Of a stretch of DNA of 61,401 nucleotides, positions 25,124-47,037 are shown in pieces. The first letter of the stretch is position 1. Each line of letters opens with the position of its first letter. The notes beneath the pieces are model-generated. The model ran no database searches. It had not been told where the DNA came from and saw only the letters and a program-made list of their open reading frames with translations. The translations under genes and the position numbers were made by a program. The stretch comes from a virus, in IMG/VR virus record IMGVR_UViG_3300049032_000024, positions 1 to 61,401 of that record; one strand, given 5' to 3'.

Positions 25124-27277
25124 CTACGCTGCAAGTTTTTCAATCTTCGCAAGGTTTGGACCGTAGCCTGCATCTGCAGCGAACGGAACAGTGTCTCCGT
25201 ACACGTCACGGCCAGCCCTACGCAGAGCCTCAGCAATCAAGTTGCCTACAGCAACCTTATGCTCTTCCGGGCAGGTGACGTAGATAGCGTCATGGATGGT
25301 TCCCATGAGCCACGCGCCGTACTGCTCGAGCTGGGGATTCAGCCAGAGCGCTGCAGCAAGGCAGATATCGTTGGCTGTGGACTGAGACGTGAAGCTCAGT
25401 GCAGAGTTCGTGACCTCGTGGGCGTTCATCTCAGTGATGATTTCCGACTGGAAGTGACGCCCAAACTTGGTGACGATAGCCCCGCCAGTCTTGGCCTTCT
25501 CTTCAATCATCTGCCGCCACTGAGCAAACTTGCTGCCCGGACGCACGAAACCGTCTACCAGCGTTTGGGCGATGTGCTGCTCAACTTCCAGCGCTGCAGC
25601 GATAGCAGCTACGCCACGTCCGAAGGACACACCGTACACAACACCCTTCATACGGGCACGCCACGTTCCATAGAACTGTCCGAGGTCATCACCGTTGTCA
25701 GCACGTTCGTGAAGCTCTGCCCAGTCGTACTGAGGCATTGCAGACTGCAGGAGGATATCAAAAATATCACCCGCTCCCGGTTGAAAAGCAGAAATCAACC
25801 ATTCATCGCCGGACTCCATAGCCATCACACGGAGCTCTGCCTGAGACATATCCGCTGTCACAACCACGTGTCCGGGCTCTGAAGGCAGCACCATGCGCTT
25901 CAAACGCTTGTCGCGGGGGATTGTCAGCATGGATGCCCCAGCGCCGCCCAGACGGCCCGTAGAAGCCGCATGAAGCTTGTAGCCGGGATACACCATGTCA
26001 CCGTGACAGTGAGCCAGATAGCCAGTGACGTATGTGCTGAGCTGCTTGCTGATGAACCGGCACTTCTTCAGTGTCAGGCAGAACTCCCGAACCTCATCAG
26101 AAGTGCGGGGATTCTTCAGCAGCTTTTCAATGGTGTTCTTGTCGCTGCTCTTGACGCGCTTCTTACGGCTGTGCAGCCACGCCTTGACCTGCTGTGGCGA
26201 GCGCGGGTTGATAGTCTGCCCAGCCGCAGCACAGAACTCCTGTTCAGCCTCATACAGCTCTGCTGTCAGCTCAACCTCAAGCTCCTGCAGGTACGGAACA
26301 TCAAGCTTGATGCCACGGCGCTCAACGCCACGGTACAGCTCATTGTCCAGACGCAGCAGCCAGTCGAATGCCTTGCGGGATTCAGGGTCTTGTTCAAGGT
26401 AATCCTCGAGCAGGACATACAGGTGCCATGTGTAGAACACGTCATAGGCGTTGTACTCGTACAGGATCGAACGGGGGATACGCTCATAGCCAGAGCCCCC
26501 ACTGTACTTGCGAGCGCTCCACCAGACGCCATCCTCGCCGGTACCAGCCTCTTTGTACGTCTTGGCTACCGTGTAGGGCTTGTTACCTTCATCCCAGTCA
26601 CCAGAGCCGAAATACTGGTCACCCAAGTCCTTCAGGGCGTGTGTGCTGCCAGCAGGGTAGAGCGCGTAGTGAGCCAGCATGATATCGAACCAGTTATACA
26701 AGTCAGGCTCGAAGTATGACAAGTCAAACTTGCCGTTGGCGGTGATGATCTTGTTCCGCCGAAGGAACTTGTTCAGACCGCGCTCCACCAAGGGATTCCG
26801 TAGCATGTGCTCGGGGATCACCATGACAGAGCCCTGACCGCCCCAGATGGCTACGGAAATGACCTGATCGTAAGACGGAATGTCCCACTTCACGTCACCG
26901 GACGTTTCAATATCGAACGATATCTTCTTGCCCTTGGTGTTGTTCAGGATGCCGCAGAGCCAGTCCAAGCGCTCTTCAACGATGTAATTCATGCGGCCAA
27001 GATCAACGTCATTGACCAGCAGCTTCAATGCGTCAGAGACGCGGGTAAGGCTGTCAGCCTTGGTGACCATCGCGCCCACAGAGGGTACCTGCACCACACG
27101 GCTACGGACTTCCCGCGTCAGTCGTCCCAGAGAGAATACAGGAATGTTGCGGAAGGGCTCATCCGGCAGGGGAATGAAATCAATCTGTTCCTCAATGCCG
27201 GAAAGTTCCTTTGCCTTCCGCAACACCGCTGCAGCTTCCGGCCCTACCTCATCCTTGGACCAGATGTATGCCCTCAA
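25124..27277 (-). CDS. Family A DNA polymerase
   Basis: 717 aa from TTG, which follows the previous stop without a gap (TGATTG). N-terminal 3'-5' exonuclease domain: FDIET at 121-125, NGKFD at 181-185, a tyrosine motif near 276-279. Polymerase domain: motif A DMSQAELR at 476-483 (DYSQIELR in relatives), motif B RMKGVVYG around 542-549, motif C HDA at 662-664. There is no 5' nuclease domain, as is normal for phage enzymes. It should be the replicative polymerase. Confidence 0.93.
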   Translation of the reverse strand: MRAYIWSKDEVGPEAAAVLRKAKELSGIEEQIDFIPLPDEPFRNIPVFSLGRLTREVRSRVVQVPSVGAMVTKADSLTRVSDALKLLVNDVDLGRMNYIVEERLDWLCGILNNTKGKKISFDIETSGDVKWDIPSYDQVISVAIWGGQGSVMVIPEHMLRNPLVERGLNKFLRRNKIITANGKFDLSYFEPDLYNWFDIMLAHYALYPAGSTHALKDLGDQYFGSGDWDEGNKPYTVAKTYKEAGTGEDGVWWSARKYSGGSGYERIPRSILYEYNAYDVFYTWHLYVLLEDYLEQDPESRKAFDWLLRLDNELYRGVERRGIKLDVPYLQELEVELTAELYEAEQEFCAAAGQTINPRSPQQVKAWLHSRKKRVKSSDKNTIEKLLKNPRTSDEVREFCLTLKKCRFISKQLSTYVTGYLAHCHGDMVYPGYKLHAASTGRLGGAGASMLTIPRDKRLKRMVLPSEPGHVVVTADMSQAELRVMAMESGDEWLISAFQPGAGDIFDILLQSAMPQYDWAELHERADNGDDLGQFYGTWRARMKGVVYGVSFGRGVAAIAAALEVEQHIAQTLVDGFVRPGSKFAQWRQMIEEKAKTGGAIVTKFGRHFQSEIITEMNAHEVTNSALSFTSQSTANDICLAAALWLNPQLEQYGAWLMGTIHDAIYVTCPEEHKVAVGNLIAEALRRAGRDVYGDTVPFAADAGYGPNLAKIEKLAA

Positions 27278-28084: not shown

Positions 28085-30301
28085 TTATGCTTCCTCCGTT
28101 GCCACGAGGGACTTTGAGCCCTTCTTTCCCTTGAGCAGGACTACCCTGCCCGATTCTTCCAGTGATTGCACAAGTTCAAGGAACTCGCGCGATTTCAGTT
28201 CGGCACTGAATGCCCTGTAAGCCTGAGCCCAAGAGCACTCACCGCCGCGAGCCATGATGACCTCAAGCAGCTTGTCCTGCCTCCGCTTCCAGTTGGACTC
28301 GGAAATCAGGTTGGTCATGGTCACAAGGTGCTCGAACCACTCGCTGCAGTAGTTGATGGCCACAAGCATGTGACGCAGCTCTACCTCATCGCACATATCC
28401 GCCATTGCCAGCAGCGTAGATGCCTTCAGGATGGACGTAGAGAGACGGTTGGTAGCTGCCTCAAGGATCGTTGACTTTGCCTCTGCCTGTGCAGCGTCCA
28501 GAGCCGCCGTGACGAACTGGTTGAAGCGCTTGTGTGCTGCCTCATTCATTGGTACCGCAATCGTGCGCGAGGTTGGATCATTCCAGCCTGCCCACACGTC
28601 ACGCGCTTCCTTCAGCTTCTCAATGAGGTTCAGGAAGGCAGGATCACCCTTGGTGCGCTCCGTAGGGTCCTGCTGGCCAATGTAGTCAGTCTCAGCGGTA
28701 CGCTCCAGAGGCTCAGCCGATACCCAGATGAAGCGGGTAAGGAAGCCTGACTGGAAATCCTCTTCCGTCAGGTAGTCCGCGAGCTGCTTACGGATACCCA
28801 TTGCGAACAGGTTCAGCGCCACGCGAGCACCCTTACGCTTTTTGTCCTTCTCTTCCCCGGAAGCACGCAGCTTGCCGGTCACCTTGCCATCGTAGATTTC
28901 GGTGAGTTCACCCTTGATGCCAGCGAGGTAAGCCTTGCTGTCAAGCTGCTTCATCAAGCCCTGAATCTCATCAATGTGCAGCAGGGCGGAACGGTTGGCG
29001 TTCTGACGCAGCGCTTCATCCAGACCTTCAGCCGTGAACTTAGAGCCCAAGTCATAGTTGTAACCCTCTTCTTCAAGAGCCTCAATGCACTTGAGCATGT
29101 AACCCTTGGCAGTGGACTTACGGGAGAGGGTTGTGCTGCCCAGCACCATAAACCACAGGTTCAGCGGTACGTCTCCCCAGTGAGGTACGGCATGGCCGAA
29201 GTCAGAGAAGACGGTGGACAGGACGGTGAAGGCACCAGCTACGTGATAGGCGTTCGGTGCGTCTGTCTTGCTCGAGGTCCAAGCGAGGTAATCGTCAATG
29301 AAGCAGCCATCAAGGTTCTCCTTCTCAGCAGGAGTCAGGAAGTCATAGCCCTTGGACTTTTTCTTGGGAGCAACGGTGACAACCTCTTCCTCATCCTCTT
29401 CTTCCTCAAAGAGGTCAGGCTGTCCATCCTTGGCGCGAGCGCGCTGAATGTCATCCCACAGGTGCTTGCCGGGATTGGCAACGTTGTCGCGCTTCCACTT
29501 GTTCAGCGGCGAGCGCTCCGCAATGACGTACACCTGCTCATCCGTGGCACCGAGATTGAAGAGCTCGACGTAGAGCGCGTACAGGGCTTCTGAGCCTGCC
29601 GAATTCTTGGGGAATGCCGCAGTCTGGAGCAGTCCTTCCAGCCGTGTGCTCGGGGGAATCTCATTCAGCACAGTGGCGTAAGAGGGAAGTTCCTCTTCAG
29701 GGAACGGCTTGAAGTCCATCGTGTACTCAGGGACAGCAGGGTAGAACTCGGTGAATTCTTCCTCCGTGTAAACAACCCCTGTGTACTCAGCCTCAACCTT
29801 GTAGACCTCTCCAGTTTCTCCCATGTATTTGAGGTTCATCGTGCCGGGAACACGCAGCAGCTTGGTGCAGGACCAGCCATCATCAAAGCCGGTTTCCTTC
29901 TTCGGGTGTGCTACGGATACCGAGTGGCTAAGAGTCTCAGCAGTCTGGGCATCAGACATACCCTCAATGAGCCAGTACAGGTGCGTCTTGTTCGGGGAAG
30001 TCCGCACGATGATGGAAGGCTCACACCGAATGTCATCAAGGTTGAAGGTGTCAGCGTCACCGTAGACCACCTGTGCAGCGCTGGCGAGCACACGCTGCCT
30101 CTTGTTGGCCCTGAACAGGACCGGAGTGTAGTACACGTCTTCGTGCTTGTACTTCTCGATGTAGGCGTAGATATCAGCGGCCTGTTCCGGCCACGAGAAA
30201 AACTTGTGATTCCTGACCTGCCCGTTCAGCATACGGGCGATATCTACCTGCCCTACCTGTTCTCCCCAGACACTTTCAAGGAAAGTCTTGTACTCGGTCA
30301 C
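28085..30301 (-). CDS. Primase/helicase (RepB-like primase plus DUF3987-like ATPase)
   Basis: 738 aa. GTG chosen for its AAAGGAG 4 nt upstream; an earlier in-frame ATG lies in the promoter. The N-terminal domain has YGDAD at 80-84, a PSIIVRTSPNKTHLYWLIEG block, and KLLRVPGTMN, as in RepB/AEP-type primases. An acidic linker (FEEEEDEEEV) leads to the ATPase: Walker A-like GSTTLSRKST at 388-397 and LLHIDEIQ (Walker B, 443-446). One protein probably primes and unwinds. It has its own promoter. Confidence 0.8.
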   Translation of the reverse strand: MTEYKTFLESVWGEQVGQVDIARMLNGQVRNHKFFSWPEQAADIYAYIEKYKHEDVYYTPVLFRANKRQRVLASAAQVVYGDADTFNLDDIRCEPSIIVRTSPNKTHLYWLIEGMSDAQTAETLSHSVSVAHPKKETGFDDGWSCTKLLRVPGTMNLKYMGETGEVYKVEAEYTGVVYTEEEFTEFYPAVPEYTMDFKPFPEEELPSYATVLNEIPPSTRLEGLLQTAAFPKNSAGSEALYALYVELFNLGATDEQVYVIAERSPLNKWKRDNVANPGKHLWDDIQRARAKDGQPDLFEEEEDEEEVVTVAPKKKSKGYDFLTPAEKENLDGCFIDDYLAWTSSKTDAPNAYHVAGAFTVLSTVFSDFGHAVPHWGDVPLNLWFMVLGSTTLSRKSTAKGYMLKCIEALEEEGYNYDLGSKFTAEGLDEALRQNANRSALLHIDEIQGLMKQLDSKAYLAGIKGELTEIYDGKVTGKLRASGEEKDKKRKGARVALNLFAMGIRKQLADYLTEEDFQSGFLTRFIWVSAEPLERTAETDYIGQQDPTERTKGDPAFLNLIEKLKEARDVWAGWNDPTSRTIAVPMNEAAHKRFNQFVTAALDAAQAEAKSTILEAATNRLSTSILKASTLLAMADMCDEVELRHMLVAINYCSEWFEHLVTMTNLISESNWKRRQDKLLEVIMARGGECSWAQAYRAFSAELKSREFLELVQSLEESGRVVLLKGKKGSKSLVATEEA

Positions 30302-30336
30302 TGTGCTCCTTTCATTCCAAACTGATAGCTTAGCAG

Positions 30337-30365
30337 ATGTAATACATTCCATCGTACTTAGTCAA
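30337..30365 (-). promoter_or_regulatory. Promoter of the primase/polymerase operon
   Basis: TTGACT-N17-TTACAT on the minus strand, 36 nt before the start. The spacer contains ATGGAATGTATTACA, which recurs as ATGGAATGCATTACA at 51249; a possible shared regulator site. Confidence 0.6.
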
Positions 30366-37606: not shown

Positions 37607-38884
37607 TCACTTCTCATCTGCTTCAACCGCTACTCCGGGTGCCTGATCCGTGTAGACCAGATCGTAGAGCATCGAGTAAAGCTGACGCTGACCGCCGAAG
37701 CCAGCGCTCGTGGCCATCCAAGGGTTGTTCTTGCGCTTCTCCCAGTCAACGGCACCGAGCTTGCTGACGTACTCCGCAACCGAGTCCCAGAAGTCCGCGT
37801 CATTCTCGGTCTTGTCCAGCGATGTGAGCAGGATATCCGAACCGAGCAGCGAGACTGCCGCGACACCAACCACGTCCTTGAGCCGGTACTTGACCTGCTC
37901 TTCAACCGTCTCGTGCTCAGCGTTCTCAACGAACCGTGGCTGGTCCGTCCAAGCTGGAGCACATGCCTTGGCAACCAGAGCCCAGAAACGCTTTGCCACG
38001 TTCTCAGGCTTGTAGCCGCGCTGCTCGAGCCGGTTGATGACCTTGACCGGAAGCAGGTCACCGACTGACCGACGCAGACCCTCGAAGCTGACGGGCTCCA
38101 CAGCCTTTGGCCTGCCGGTCATGTTGACCAGACCGTTCCACACCGAGTCACCGTCTTCCGCCAGCTCGAAGCTGATCTTCCGAATGGTTTGAGCGTGGGA
38201 CTCTTCACCGGCCTCAGTGTGGACCTTCGTTGCCTCAATGAGAGCCTTGGGCAGCTTGCGCTGGTTGGTGTTGACCTCATCGAAGAAGCTGGCCTCTTCA
38301 GCGTAGTTCAGACCGTAGTACAGTGTGATCGGCACCACACAGTTGAACTCTTCATCGTTCTTCCAGCCGTAGTACAGACCTCCCATGCGGTGTTGACCGT
38401 CAACAATGGAGAAGACTGACTTGCCGAACTCCTGATGTATCTTGCTGATGTTACCAGCATTGAAGAGAGTGTTGAAACGGTTACGGTCCTTGGTGTTGTA
38501 GACCCGGACAGAAATGATGAGTGCCGGAATCTTGAAGCGGTTGTCATCCTTGGCGTAGTACCTTGCGATGCCGGGGAAGCGCTCTTCCATCGGTTCCCGC
38601 TGGTAGCCGTGGTTGCGGGGGCTGGAAGACTGGGGATCGTGTGTGCTGTACGTGCTGATGAACGCCAGCATCTTCAGCTTCTCAGGAGTCATGCCAGCGA
38701 TGGCGACCTTCCCCGGAACCAGTGTGGCCATGATTTCCATCTTGCCCTCTTTGGTAGCTACCTGAGTGGTAGGGGCGGAAGCTGGCTTCACGATGGGGAT
38801 AGCCACGGTGGGGGTCTTGGTGTCCACCTTGTTGGCCTGAGCGCGAGCGGAGCGACGGGTGCGGGGAGTGGTTGCAGTTGCCAT
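37607..38884 (-). CDS. DGQHR-domain protein
   Basis: 425 aa from ATG with AAAGAGGAAC upstream. DGQHR at 162-166 within FSIVDGQHRMGGLYYG, the signature of the ParB/DndB-like DGQHR family, and NTNQRKLPKALI later as in relatives. The first 50 residues are basic and Pro/Thr-rich (TPRTRRSARAQAN). DndB relatives regulate DNA phosphorothioation; phage members have no agreed role. It is monocistronic, with its own promoter (TTGTAG-N17-CTAGTG) and terminator. Confidence 0.75.
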   Translation of the reverse strand: MATATTPRTRRSARAQANKVDTKTPTVAIPIVKPASAPTTQVATKEGKMEIMATLVPGKVAIAGMTPEKLKMLAFISTYSTHDPQSSSPRNHGYQREPMEERFPGIARYYAKDDNRFKIPALIISVRVYNTKDRNRFNTLFNAGNISKIHQEFGKSVFSIVDGQHRMGGLYYGWKNDEEFNCVVPITLYYGLNYAEEASFFDEVNTNQRKLPKALIEATKVHTEAGEESHAQTIRKISFELAEDGDSVWNGLVNMTGRPKAVEPVSFEGLRRSVGDLLPVKVINRLEQRGYKPENVAKRFWALVAKACAPAWTDQPRFVENAEHETVEEQVKYRLKDVVGVAAVSLLGSDILLTSLDKTENDADFWDSVAEYVSKLGAVDWEKRKNNPWMATSAGFGGQRQLYSMLYDLVYTDQAPGVAVEADEK

Positions 38885-39017
38885 TTTGTGTTCCTCTTTC
38901 GGTAGTTGGTAGCTTCTTGCTACTGGTACTAACTTACTTTCAACCACTAGCACATGCAACACTTGTTCTACAACTCCGTGTACTCTAATTCCGTGATGTG
39001 GACTACCTGCTTCGTAC

Positions 39018-41443: not shown

Positions 41444-41787
41444 AGGTTCACGCTCCGAAGAATGATACCGCCCTGACCATCGGACTTGGCCTGTACTCCG
41501 TACTGCTCACCCATCGTGGCTGCTTCAGCCATGCGGATACGCAACTGCTTGCGCGGTAGCTTGGACAGCGCGAGCCCGAAGGCAGGCTTCAGCAGGTTCA
41601 ATTCCTTGATGGCCTCTGCTCCTTTATGGAGCTGCTGAATCACATCATCCACACCAATAGGGGCTTCCTCAACAGGTACCCACTCGCTGCTCACACGAAC
41701 AGGAGTTGAGTATTCTTCAGCATCCCAGCCTGCCAGCTCCCCAGTTGTAGGTATGTGTTCTTCACCGTGGAAGGTTGATCCATTCAC
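41440..41787 (-). CDS. 115-aa protein downstream of the helicase
   Basis: GTG overlapping the helicase TAG. VDDVIQQLHKGAEAIKELNL and LPRKQLRIRMAEAATMGEQY. Unknown; possibly a helicase partner because of the tight coupling. Confidence 0.6.
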   Translation of the reverse strand: MNGSTFHGEEHIPTTGELAGWDAEEYSTPVRVSSEWVPVEEAPIGVDDVIQQLHKGAEAIKELNLLKPAFGLALSKLPRKQLRIRMAEAATMGEQYGVQAKSDGQGGIILRSVNL

Positions 41788-43214
41788 TATGCTGCTTCTC
41801 CATCTTCGTCACCGTAACCCATGTCCAGCATTTGTTGACTGTTCCTGAGCTTACCGATTTGCTTTACTTCAACTGTGTCCTTGGCCAGAATCATGTAGCG
41901 CTGCACGCTCCGTGTCTGACCCTGCCTGCTGAGCCTACCTGCTCCCTGTGTGTTTATCAAGGGGCTCCAGCTCACGTTCATCCAGATTTCGTGGCAGGCA
42001 ACTAGCTGTAGACCATCCGTACCTTCTGCTACTGCCTGCAGCGTACACACCAGAATGTCGAACTCCTTACCGAAGTTCTCCATCTTCCAGTCGCGCTCTT
42101 CCTTGCTCATACCACCGACGAACTGGCGAGCGCGGTACCCTGCAGCCTGAAGCTGCTTGGTCATAATCGTGGTGAAGATACGGGAGTCCGTGAAGATCAC
42201 CACTGGTTCAGGGTGCTCAGCGTGAAGGTCACTCAGCAGCTCGAGCACAACCTCTATCTTGGTGGACTTGGCGTCTTCCTCGAACCAGACCACATCGCCC
42301 CATGCGTCCATCCACAGGCCAGTCTCTTTGTCCTTCTTCTTTACCCAGTCCTGCCGGACGGAAGGGACAGCAAGGCAAATCTGCCTTAGACGCATGTTCA
42401 GGACAGCGGGAATGTCAATGGCGAGAGGGTTGTTGTTCAGCCATGTGATGGCTTCCTCTTCCAGCTCTTTGTAGTGCTTCCGCTGTACCTGTGAGATTTC
42501 CACTTCAATCTCATGGATTGTGGGCTTGTCCTTGTAGACGGATGGCATCTTGTGTGCTGCAGGCAGCTCTTTCCAGAGCTTTCCCGGCACTCGCTCTGCC
42601 GTGACCTTCTTACCTTCACCAAACTCTGAATCCTTGAACGGATCATGCTCAGTGTGGAAATACTTGGTGACCCATGACCAGAAGCTACGGTCCACCTGTT
42701 TAGGCCACAGCCAGCGTCCCAGTGCCCAGAGCCCCATCATGTGGTTGCCTGCCGGTGTCGCTGACATGGCCAGCTTGTACGTTGCCTTGGCAGTCTTCAA
42801 CATGGCGTGCATCCGAGAGTCACGGTTGGTTGCTACGTGGCACTCATCGAAGATCACAAAGTCCAGCTTGACCTTGCGCCATGCTACGGTGCGGAAGAAC
42901 TCACGCCCTACAAAGTACCAACCGGGCTTGTTGCTGTGCAGGTCTTCCCAATGGCGGCGGTTGGCCACGCGCTTGTTGTGACAGTAGCGCAATTCGATTG
43001 CGCCTTCCGACTGCCGTTGTACTGTCTTGCGCCAGCCTGATTCAGTGCCGATAGGTGCGATGATAAGCACACGCTTGGCTTCTGCTTCAATGGCTGACTG
43101 GACGCCTACCAGCGTCTTGCCTGCACCTGTCGGTGCCTTGAGCAACACTTCCTTGTGCTCGAGGATGAAGTCTATGGCCTTGCGTTGGTCATCGTGCGGT
43201 GTGAATGGTTTCAT
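41787..43214 (-). CDS. Superfamily II helicase (DEAD/DEAH-like)
   Basis: 475 aa from ATG (ATGA overlap). Motif I APTGAGKT at 27-34, motif II DECH at 123-126, motif III SAT at 151-153, and motif VI QGAGRLSRQGQ near the C-terminus: an SNF2-like helicase or translocase. Middle region PTIHEIEVEISQVQRKHYKE as in relatives. May remodel forks or displace proteins. Confidence 0.87.
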   Translation of the reverse strand: MKPFTPHDDQRKAIDFILEHKEVLLKAPTGAGKTLVGVQSAIEAEAKRVLIIAPIGTESGWRKTVQRQSEGAIELRYCHNKRVANRRHWEDLHSNKPGWYFVGREFFRTVAWRKVKLDFVIFDECHVATNRDSRMHAMLKTAKATYKLAMSATPAGNHMMGLWALGRWLWPKQVDRSFWSWVTKYFHTEHDPFKDSEFGEGKKVTAERVPGKLWKELPAAHKMPSVYKDKPTIHEIEVEISQVQRKHYKELEEEAITWLNNNPLAIDIPAVLNMRLRQICLAVPSVRQDWVKKKDKETGLWMDAWGDVVWFEEDAKSTKIEVVLELLSDLHAEHPEPVVIFTDSRIFTTIMTKQLQAAGYRARQFVGGMSKEERDWKMENFGKEFDILVCTLQAVAEGTDGLQLVACHEIWMNVSWSPLINTQGAGRLSRQGQTRSVQRYMILAKDTVEVKQIGKLRNSQQMLDMGYGDEDGEAA

Positions 43215-44136: not shown

Positions 44137-44847
44137 TTAGTCTACGTCTTCCCAGTAAGGATTAGGTGTCTCTTTGATCTTCCCAGTGTATGTGCCATCG
44201 AGCACTTGTGCAAGTGTGGTTGCACGCACTGCTCGGTTAGTGGGTGTGTCACTCTCAAAGACTTCCTTGTTACCTGACACGTACTCACCAGTGGTGAAGT
44301 CAAAGACTGCTTCCTGTCCTTCCAGTTCAGTATCCAACTGGCCCTTCATCAGGACATAGCACCAGACTGGCTCCTGATTGCCGCGTGTGTCCGCCAGTGC
44401 GTACCGCTGTGTACCTGTGAAGCGGGACCACTGCCACTCAAGGTCACTGACTTCAGCTTCCTGATGCTTACGGTATGCCTCAGTGGTCTGCTTCACACCG
44501 TAGAACAGTCCAAGGTTCTTGGTACCAAGGGCTTGTGCTAGCTGGTAGCCAGTCTTACCGTTGACGTTCATCTCATGGGAGATGGCGTTGTCCAACGCTT
44601 CCTTGCGTGCGGCCTTCTCTACAGCCCAGCGAGCGTCAAATGCACCCTTGACGTACTTGGTACGCTCCATCCCCAGTTCGGCCTTCAGCAGGGCAATCTT
44701 GGCACGTAGCTGGGCCATCTCCACCTGCATGTCAGCGAGTCGCCGCTTCCTTTCGTGGTCTGGGGTACCCATTTCCTTGACACGTGCCTCTTCACGGTCA
44801 GTGATGAAGTTGTTCCAAGACTCGTATGCGTCTTTTAGTTCTTGCAC
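44137..44847 (-). CDS. 236-aa coiled-coil protein
   Basis: GTG with AGGAGAG upstream. Residues 1-80 coiled coil (ERKRRLADMQVEMAQLRAKI), then YQLAQALGTKNLGLFYGVKQ, WSRFTGTQRYALADTRG and a PNPYWEDVD ending. No family recognised. It forms its own unit between two terminators. Confidence 0.68.
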   Translation of the reverse strand: MQELKDAYESWNNFITDREEARVKEMGTPDHERKRRLADMQVEMAQLRAKIALLKAELGMERTKYVKGAFDARWAVEKAARKEALDNAISHEMNVNGKTGYQLAQALGTKNLGLFYGVKQTTEAYRKHQEAEVSDLEWQWSRFTGTQRYALADTRGNQEPVWCYVLMKGQLDTELEGQEAVFDFTTGEYVSGNKEVFESDTPTNRAVRATTLAQVLDGTYTGKIKETPNPYWEDVD

Positions 44848-45212: not shown

Positions 45213-45737
45213 CTACACCCTTGGGTATGTCTGCAACTCACACTGCGGCGAGCAGCCTGTCTTGCTGTGACTGTGCTTACAAAGAGCCCTCTTCTTGCAG
45301 GCTAAGCAGGTCCGTACAGTCTGCCCTGTTGTCTGTACTCTTGTTTCGTATATACCAACGATGGCGAGGTCATGCCCATGCTTGCAGTGAGTAGCTGTTG
45401 CCACGTTGGTACGCCCCTTGTGCTCAGCCTTGGGCTTGCGCGTAGGCTTTCCACCCTTGACCCAGCCGTTGCGGATACCTGCTCTACGCATGTTCTCAGA
45501 CTTGGTTACAGGCTCAAGATGGTCAGGATTCACACAGAGACGTACATGGCACAGATGGTCAAGCTGCAAGCCTTTGGCAATCGGCCCAATCAGTAGCTCC
45601 CACACAGCCCTGTGCGCTGAATGTGTCCTACCTCTGAAGGTCACCTGTCCATAGCCGCAGTTGTTCATGCCTCCGGTCCACAACCAGCAAAAACCTGTAG
45701 GCTCGACACGCTCAAAAATCCTTGTAAAATCATCCAC
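45213..45737 (-). CDS. HNH endonuclease
   Basis: 174 aa from GTG. FCWLWTGGMNNCGYGQV, THSAHRAVWELLIG, LQLDHLCHVRLCVNPDHLE, then a CKHGHDL...CLACKK zinc tail. First gene of the minus-strand block, and probably leaderless: TAGGAT ends 6 nt before the GTG. The same family as the other HNH genes here. Confidence 0.82.
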   Translation of the reverse strand: MDDFTRIFERVEPTGFCWLWTGGMNNCGYGQVTFRGRTHSAHRAVWELLIGPIAKGLQLDHLCHVRLCVNPDHLEPVTKSENMRRAGIRNGWVKGGKPTRKPKAEHKGRTNVATATHCKHGHDLAIVGIYETRVQTTGQTVRTCLACKKRALCKHSHSKTGCSPQCELQTYPRV

Positions 45738-45930: not shown

Positions 45931-45944
45931 TTAGGGTACCCTAA
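45931..45944. promoter_or_regulatory. Operator-like palindrome TTAGG-N4-CCTAA
   Basis: TTAGGGTACCCTAA, a perfect 14-bp palindrome. A related site with the same half-sites is at 46113-46126. Two further palindromic pairs (TTGAAGCTTCAA near 45961, GTTGAA-AC-TTCAAC near 46040) and CTGCATATATGCAG near 46009 lie in the same gene-free stretch. Confidence 0.5.
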
Positions 45945-46112
45945 CCGAACAATCGTTCTGTTGAAGCTTCAAACAAATTCCCTCGACTGCATATATACAG
46001 CGACACGACTGCATATATGCAGTACCCGGACACGCTACGTTGAAACTTCAACAGTCAATGTCAACAGTCAACGCTAGCGCGTAACAGTTCGACGGAGTAG
46101 CGTCACAGAAAG

Positions 46113-46126
46113 TTAGGCGTACCTAA
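46113..46126. promoter_or_regulatory. Second TTAGG-N4-CCTAA site
   Basis: TTAGGCGTACCTAA: arms identical to the first site, centre different. A lone half site (TTAGGGGTAC) is near 46250. Likely target of a dimeric regulator. Confidence 0.45.
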
Positions 46127-46220: not shown

Positions 46221-46623
46221 TGTGGATAACCTGTGGAGAACGTCGTTCATTTAGGGGTACAAGTATTTGGTTGTTTGAGCACTTGAAGCGCTTAGAACGG
46301 CATACAGGGCGTTTAGGTCACGATTTATAACAGTTCCCTCGAGCTCTTGACGTAATGCCGATGTGCTGTTATTCGCGTATGCGCGCGTTGGTAATAAGGC
46401 ACGATTCTAGGTTCGGTCACGGTTAGATAACGGTTAGGTGAACAGAACAGAGATTTAGATGCATATGCATCCAACCTGTGGATAACTCTGCAAAAGTGTG
46501 GATAACTTATGCCAAATTGTGGATAACTACCGATGCCGGCGTGGATAACTTTGCTCATTCTGTGGATAACTTTGGCGATTCTGTGGAAAAGTAGCCCTTT
46601 TCTGTGGATAAACCTGTGGAAAA
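46221..46623 (+). other. DnaA-box array, candidate replication origin
   Basis: TGTGGATAA, the complement of the DnaA box TTATCCACA, occurs exactly at 46221, 46477, 46497, 46518, 46561 and 46603. Copies with one mismatch are at 46232, 46540, 46582 and 46615. All are in one orientation, and from 46477 to 46603 they are 20-22 bp apart, close to two helical turns. There is no gene from 45738 to 46878. This is the pattern of a bacterial oriC or a DnaA-titrating site; which of the two cannot be decided from sequence. Confidence 0.8.
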
Positions 46624-46722: not shown

Positions 46723-46868
46723 CCCCCGGTAACACCGGGGGAATTGATAGCTAAATAGTGAACGCGGGTAGGGGTATCCGCTCTAGTGCATTCCTAGAGC
46801 GGGTACCCGGTAGAACTAGAGACTTTCATCTAGCAAGGGAAAGAGCCCTTGCTAGTTGTTAGCAACTA
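46723..46868 (+). other. Structured leader before the plus-strand operon
   Basis: Successive hairpins: CCCCCGGT-AAC-ACCGGGGG (46723-46741), a 14-bp stem at 46773-46807 with one G-U pair, CTAGCAAGGG / CCCTTGCTAG (46830-46855) and GTTG-TTAG-CAAC. The last two resemble in layout the two-hairpin elements further along. ACTTTCATCTAG occurs twice (46695 and 46822). The region precedes the first gene by only 10 nt. Confidence 0.6.
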
Positions 46869-46878
46869 GGGAGAGAAC

Positions 46879-47037
46879 ATGAAAACACAACAGGAAATTA
46901 CGGCACGTATTGCTTACTTGAAGCACCAAAAAGAGCAGGCAATAAAAGAAGAGTTGTGGACAGCTACAGCGATATTTCAAGCGCAGATAGAAACGCTTGA
47001 ATGGGTACAGGAAGCAACTACGTTTCATACGTTCTAA
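46879..47037 (+). CDS. 52-aa coiled-coil peptide, first gene of the operon
   Basis: ATG with AGGGAGAG upstream. QEITARIAYLKHQKEQAIKE and ALIF-like aromatic stretches form one long helix. Unrecognised. Its stop codon starts the first two-hairpin element. Confidence 0.65.
   Translation: MKTQQEITARIAYLKHQKEQAIKEELWTATAIFQAQIETLEWVQEATTFHTF

Follow-up and report, generated by a model that had tools for sequence, protein, structure and literature searches.

A phased array of DnaA-type boxes, conserved in a diverged relative, as a candidate replication origin of a probably actinobacterial phage

The window analyzed here is the whole of the IMG/VR virus contig IMGVR_UViG_3300049032_000024 (61,401 bp). 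Between 46.2 and 46.6 kb it carries a dense group of 9-mers of the DnaA-box type, which sits where a leftward replication block and a rightward operon diverge. This location had been claimed in a preliminary description of the sequence and was confirmed: the leftward block runs from the HNH gene at 45213–45737 and the plus-strand operon from the ORF at 46879. The relevant features are the following.

25124–27277, minus strand: family A DNA polymerase with 3′-5′ exonuclease
28085–30352, minus strand: primase with a DUF3987/helicase-like C-terminal half
41787–43214, minus strand: SF2/SNF2-type helicase, used as the query for finding relatives
45213–45737, minus strand: HNH endonuclease gene, the first recognised gene of the leftward block
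46221–46240, plus strand: upstream double DnaA box TGTGGATAACCTGTGGAGAA, 11 bp start to start
46315–46327, plus strand: block AGGTCACGATTTA between the pair and the array, conserved in the alignment with the relative G001
46422–46476, plus strand: candidate unwinding segment with TTAGATAACGG/TTAGGTGAACAG repeats, directly 5′ of the array
46477–46623, plus strand: tandem DnaA-box array of eight slots, 147 nt (TGTGGATAA is the complement of TTATCCACA)
46603–46623, plus strand: terminal double box TGTGGATAAACCTGTGGAAAA, 12 bp start to start, the last two slots of the array
46740–46808, plus strand: leader of the plus operon, with boxA-like GGAATTGATAGCTAAATAGTGAACGCGGG and then a hairpin (46772–46808)
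46879–47037, plus strand: first small ORF (52 codons) of the rightward operon, read directly from the sequence

On the plus strand of 46221–46623, we found six exact TGTGGATAA 9-mers (starting at 46221, 46477, 46497, 46518, 46561 and 46603) and four one-mismatch copies (46232, TGTGGAGAA; 46540, CGTGGATAA; 46582 and 46615, both TGTGGAAAA), all in a single orientation. These counts agreed exactly with the preliminary description, as did the start-to-start steps of 20, 21, 22, 21, 21, 21 and 12 bp from 46477. Its sites thus stood, but what it had treated as one array of 403 nt was refined to two elements: an array of eight slots (46477, 46497, 46518, 46540, 46561, 46582, 46603 and 46615) and a separate pair 256 bp upstream. 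All of the exact copies in the 61.4-kb record were within 46221–46623, where the local base composition predicts 0.003 exact sites per 403 nt on one strand (Poisson P for six, about 4e-19). Allowing up to one mismatch gave 19 sites in the whole record, a number that no dinucleotide shuffle reached (9.7 ± 3.1 sites). The array appears to be noncoding as far as can be judged: the sole frame across it, about 106 codons long, is antisense.

A single-sequence search with the helicase found no relatives; an alignment-based search did recover them in IMG/VR. The closest relative found was IMGVR_UViG_3300044878_000080 (61,117 bp; hereafter G001). It was largely syntenic with this phage, with 61% identity in the primase, 56% in the helicase and about 35–75% in most matched proteins. 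G001 had the array in the same slots, with steps of 20, 21, 21, 21, 21, 21 and 12 bp, the same terminal 12-bp step, and seven exact boxes in all. Its upstream double box, TTGTCTGTGGATAACCTGTGGA, was identical to that of this phage and lay 267 bp before the array (256 bp here). Of the 72 box positions in the slots, 67 were identical between the two phages; of the 74 spacer positions, justified as favorably as possible, only 32 were (Fisher P = 3e-11). The degenerate slots were 4, 6 and 8 in this phage and 5 and 8 in G001. Such divergence of spacers around retained boxes is the pattern that selection on the boxes and their phasing would produce. There is good support for selection on a DnaA-type array, but not for any one function of it.

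Among named phages, the replication proteins best matched those of Arthrobacter phage Amigo (primase 50%, helicase 38%), and they were more distantly similar to those of Clavibacter, Curtobacterium and Microbacterium phages. Judging from these relatives and from the boxA-like leader element, the host is most likely an actinobacterium. Primase and helicase in common with these actinophages were also observed in Stenotrophomonas phage Jojan60 (L129) and Pseudanabaena phage Pan2 (L130). The array was absent from the named relatives Amigo, Molivia, Jojan60, Pan2, Yappy, CN1A, Commonplace, CMP1 and Jacko, and from the records of the next IMG/VR relatives (helicase 43–50% identical), some of which are fragments. 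In the corresponding intergenic region of Amigo there were one TTATCCACA and several TGTGGA half-motifs. When the array region was used for a DNA-level search of named phages, only three Microviridae matched. The same array and spacing, which the preliminary description had proposed to look for in related phages, were therefore found in G001 but not in more distant relatives. As it is missing there, the array appears to be a feature of this lineage, superimposed on a replication module that is older. These relatives have homologous primase and helicase, so the module itself does not need the array.

Similar arrays were also present in other viruses. Three TGTGGATAA at steps of 18–24 bp occurred in at least 120 viral contigs, compared with four for the reversed motif and one for an out-of-phase control (steps of 25–27 bp); as lower bounds, these counts show enrichment, not prevalence. 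The earlier suggestion that such an array is exceptional in a phage was thus not upheld. Among the matches listed, both steps were 20–22 bp in 52 of the 120 in-phase contigs, and in a wide-gap sample the distances peaked at 11–12, 21–22 and 32–33 bp. Four boxes at about 21 bp were found in 20 viral contigs, including G001 and Lactococcus phages 949 and LW81. The primase of this phage had no match in the six four-box records that were searched with it, and besides G001, the array loci had only endonuclease-like genes or weak matches in common with this phage. The array of phage 949 (19443–19514) lies in a 1.06-kb intergenic gap where operons diverge, beside an HNH gene, a layout that looks much like the one described here.

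Two other sources of the viral arrays were rejected. That bacterial oriC had contaminated the viral set was rejected after testing, because dnaA was found in none of 221 viral array loci but in 28 of 119 bacterial ones; the array neighbors on larger viral contigs, which included terminases, portals and primases, also argue against it. Coding heptad repeats could account for few of the 21-bp arrays at most, since just seven of the 120 listed, nine of 101 and two of 20 lay inside a long frame. Separately, we observed three tandem TGTGGATAAC at 20–21 bp in intergenic DNA of a single-stranded DNA phage (Microviridae MG945717, L006; 3555–3604), and two more Microviridae from pig feces were alike. 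This triplet is perhaps a DnaA-dependent primosome site.

In the 28 bacterial loci with dnaA, the array was within about 330 bp of this gene in 27. The distances between bacterial boxes peaked at 11–12 and 20–22 bp. Phased TGTGGATAAC clusters were also found 31–207 kb from dnaA on the chromosomes of Stackebrandtia, Nocardia and Actinocorallia (L337, L358 and L396), and the boxes around actinobacterial dnaA showed mixed usage of TTATCCACA and TTGTCCACA. These distant clusters are not dnaA-adjacent origins; they fit titration clusters as well as origins, and we regard them as candidate titration loci.

We then considered the physical properties of the DNA. The 100-mer from 46422, directly 5′ of the array, ranked within the lowest 0.46% of the genome for stability, and its counterpart in G001 within the lowest 0.29%, although this flank was not the genome minimum. 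In E. coli oriC, the less stable DNA likewise lies 5′ of the boxes. Across the viral arrays, a consistently less stable 5′ than 3′ flank was not found. Inspection by eye of the array region and its G001 alignment revealed no clear DnaA-trio. The cumulative GC skew had its minimum at 46072 in this phage, and in G001 it fell at a distance of about 0.15 kb from the pair, but this minimum is confounded because the skew switches with gene direction at the same point. The coincidence was mixed in other array phages.

Phages with replication genes of their own are usually regarded as DnaA-independent. In line with this, the preliminary description had called the use of host DnaA unexpected for a phage with its own polymerase and primase/helicase. 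We did not detect a DnaB C-terminal domain or DnaA domain IV (the DNA-binding domain) in this phage, G001 or Amigo, so the possession of a polymerase and a primase does not make DnaA use surprising, although the primase protein has a helicase-like C-terminal half. No known initiator family was found among the phage proteins scanned, and no RepL-type initiator was recognised.

Because the array is intact in a relative and similar rows occur in many unrelated viruses, this virus probably starts its own DNA copying with host DnaA. The conserved boxes, the low-stability flank, the skew minimum and the lack of detected DnaA and DnaB domains favor an origin that uses host DnaA. We put at about even the chance that the segment at 46.2–46.6 kb is a compact, two-part, host-DnaA-dependent replication origin of a probably actinobacterial phage. 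In such an origin, host ATP-DnaA would occupy the pair upstream and, along one face of the helix, the eight phased boxes, and would build a head-to-tail filament. Directional boxes favor head-to-tail DnaA oligomers (PMC10316083), and double boxes with gaps of 2–3 bp have the spacing that E. coli DnaA prefers in vivo (PMC11317965). The filament might then open the low-stability segment between pair and array, and the opened strand would admit either the phage's own primase-helicase or the DnaB of the host, brought in by DnaA. Divergent forks would start from there, one toward the leftward replication operon and the other toward the early operon on the right. As a side effect on the host, the arrays might bind much of its DnaA as the phage copy number rises.

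An origin is supported by the conserved boxes, steps and pair, by the site at the divergence point with its skew minimum and low-stability flank, by the dnaA-adjacent bacterial arrays and by the layout of phage 949. Against it stand the flank that is not the genome minimum, the lack of a general unstable 5′ flank at viral arrays, the confounded skew, the relatives without an array and the actinobacterial arrays distant from dnaA. Part of this contrary evidence suits another function. Capture of host DnaA by the array is possible, and the array might be a sink that, in the manner of a multicopy datA or a DnaA-box cluster, sequesters host DnaA while the phage multiplies, so that new initiation of the host chromosome is blocked and nucleotides and replication proteins are freed. 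Strong consensus sites at high density would suit a sink, as would clusters of the same geometry far from dnaA on actinobacterial chromosomes, the relatives whose homologous replication proteins work without an array and the lack of a general unwinding flank; titration outside oriC is an accepted mechanism (PMC4451416). However, a sink needs no near-constant distance from pair to array (256 and 267 bp), nor does it need conserved intervening blocks or a location at the divergence point, and we consider it rather unlikely, though, like the promoter control discussed next, a serious competitor of the origin. The oriC- or datA-type reading of the preliminary description was therefore upheld in one part: helically phased DnaA-type boxes are strongly supported by conservation and by the viral and bacterial comparisons, but the sequence leaves origin and sink undecided.

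Less probable still is that array-bound host DnaA represses or activates divergent early promoters and so ties transcription to the DnaA-ATP level. In its favor, the first plus-strand ORF has a conserved leader and starts about 255 bp beyond the end of the array, and DnaA is a transcription factor in many bacteria (PMC8203912). Against it, neither the array nor the DNA from there to the plus operon yielded a sigma-70-like promoter, and the sole sigma-70-like match in the 1.45-kb region was far upstream, at 45703. Moreover, eight phased strong boxes exceed the usual number at DnaA-regulated promoters. The repeats might also be iterons, bound by a phage-encoded initiator whose site matches the DnaA box by happenstance, as the origins of iteron plasmids typically have tandem repeats of about 20 bp. 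A conserved protein with an HTH-like stretch is encoded in the leftward operon (44137–44847) and could be such an initiator, but its homologue is also present in Amigo, which has no array. The match to the DnaA consensus TTATCCACA is perfect, and the motif and its phasing recur in phages with unrelated genes and at bacterial oriC, which makes iterons very unlikely. Finally, Tandem Repeats Finder detected a 21-bp repeat, as would be expected of a recent neutral tandem duplication. In both genomes, however, the spacers have diverged while the boxes were retained, and the upstream pair is outside the tandem. The single viral contig in the out-of-phase control speaks against chance. Chance or neutral duplication is thus hardly credible.

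The array resembles parts of known systems. With bacterial oriC (the DnaA orisome, for example the dnaA region of Aeriscardovia aeriphila and the left half of E. coli oriC) it shares tandem same-strand TTATCCACA boxes at about 11–12 and 21 bp in helical register, double boxes and adjacent less stable DNA. Unlike oriC, it is in a phage genome, is only a candidate origin, has no recognised DnaA-trio and lacks the neighboring dnaA and dnaN that mark chromosomal origins. Like datA, the Bacillus DnaA clusters and the Stackebrandtia, Nocardia and Actinocorallia clusters, it has multiple strong boxes at high density away from dnaA, outside a chromosomal origin and in the same geometry; it differs from them in its operon divergence, conserved two-part layout and low-stability segment. 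Phage P1 oriL also has DnaA sites near an A/T-rich stretch at a GC-skew switch, although it has only two, whereas ten sites, eight of them phased, and no recognised RepL-type initiator are found here. The DnaA sites of oriL were dispensable in a RepL reporter assay (PMC9948254). By analogy, P1 may serve as a warning against reading DnaA sites at a skew switch as needed. The Lactococcus phages 949 and LW81 and the three pig-feces Microviridae share tandem TGTGGATAAC at 20–22 bp in noncoding DNA, but have three or four boxes instead of eight, and LW81 had no match to the primase of this phage. We found no statement on the function of these arrays in the literature searched.

Clusters of DnaA boxes are a familiar feature of bacteria, and phages are known to have single or paired sites. 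In the open-access literature that we searched, helically phased DnaA arrays were undescribed in tailed phages. A survey of alphaproteobacterial phages reported predicted DnaA sites without positional asymmetry (PMC9437464), so widespread arrays elsewhere would be news. Since the phased eight-box array persists in a diverged relative, and similar ones occur in at least 120 viral contigs, cultured lactococcal phages among them, a role of host DnaA in lytic phage replication becomes directly testable. It is tempting to go further and regard phased arrays as a widespread, repeatedly evolved takeover of host DnaA by phages with their own polymerase and primase, which would open the phage origin and, at high copy number, starve the host origin. 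We hold this only tentatively and think it rather improbable; if it were true, one element would both start phage replication and stop that of the host.

Several other elements were observed around the array. There were no RNA family matches in the array region. The segment at 46740–46808 is possibly an rRNA-type antitermination leader. Its hairpin has 15 bp; in G001 the boxA-like element was retained, together with a hairpin whose stem differs in sequence. Amigo and Molivia had TTTGAGAACTAAATAGAGA in the intergenic region corresponding to the leader. The TTAGG...CCTAA palindromes at 45931–45944 and 46112–46126 resemble half-sites of the actinobacterial iron regulators DtxR/IdeR, and a similar one was present in G001. 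Two CTGCATATATRCAG palindromes, 22 bp apart, were found within 45986–46023. Just 5′ of the array lies ATGCATATGCAT, which also occurred in G005, near that record's own pair of inverted DnaA boxes. This phage also encodes a DndB-family protein, associated with DNA phosphorothioation, at 37607–38962, and the homologue in G001 is on the opposite side of the array.
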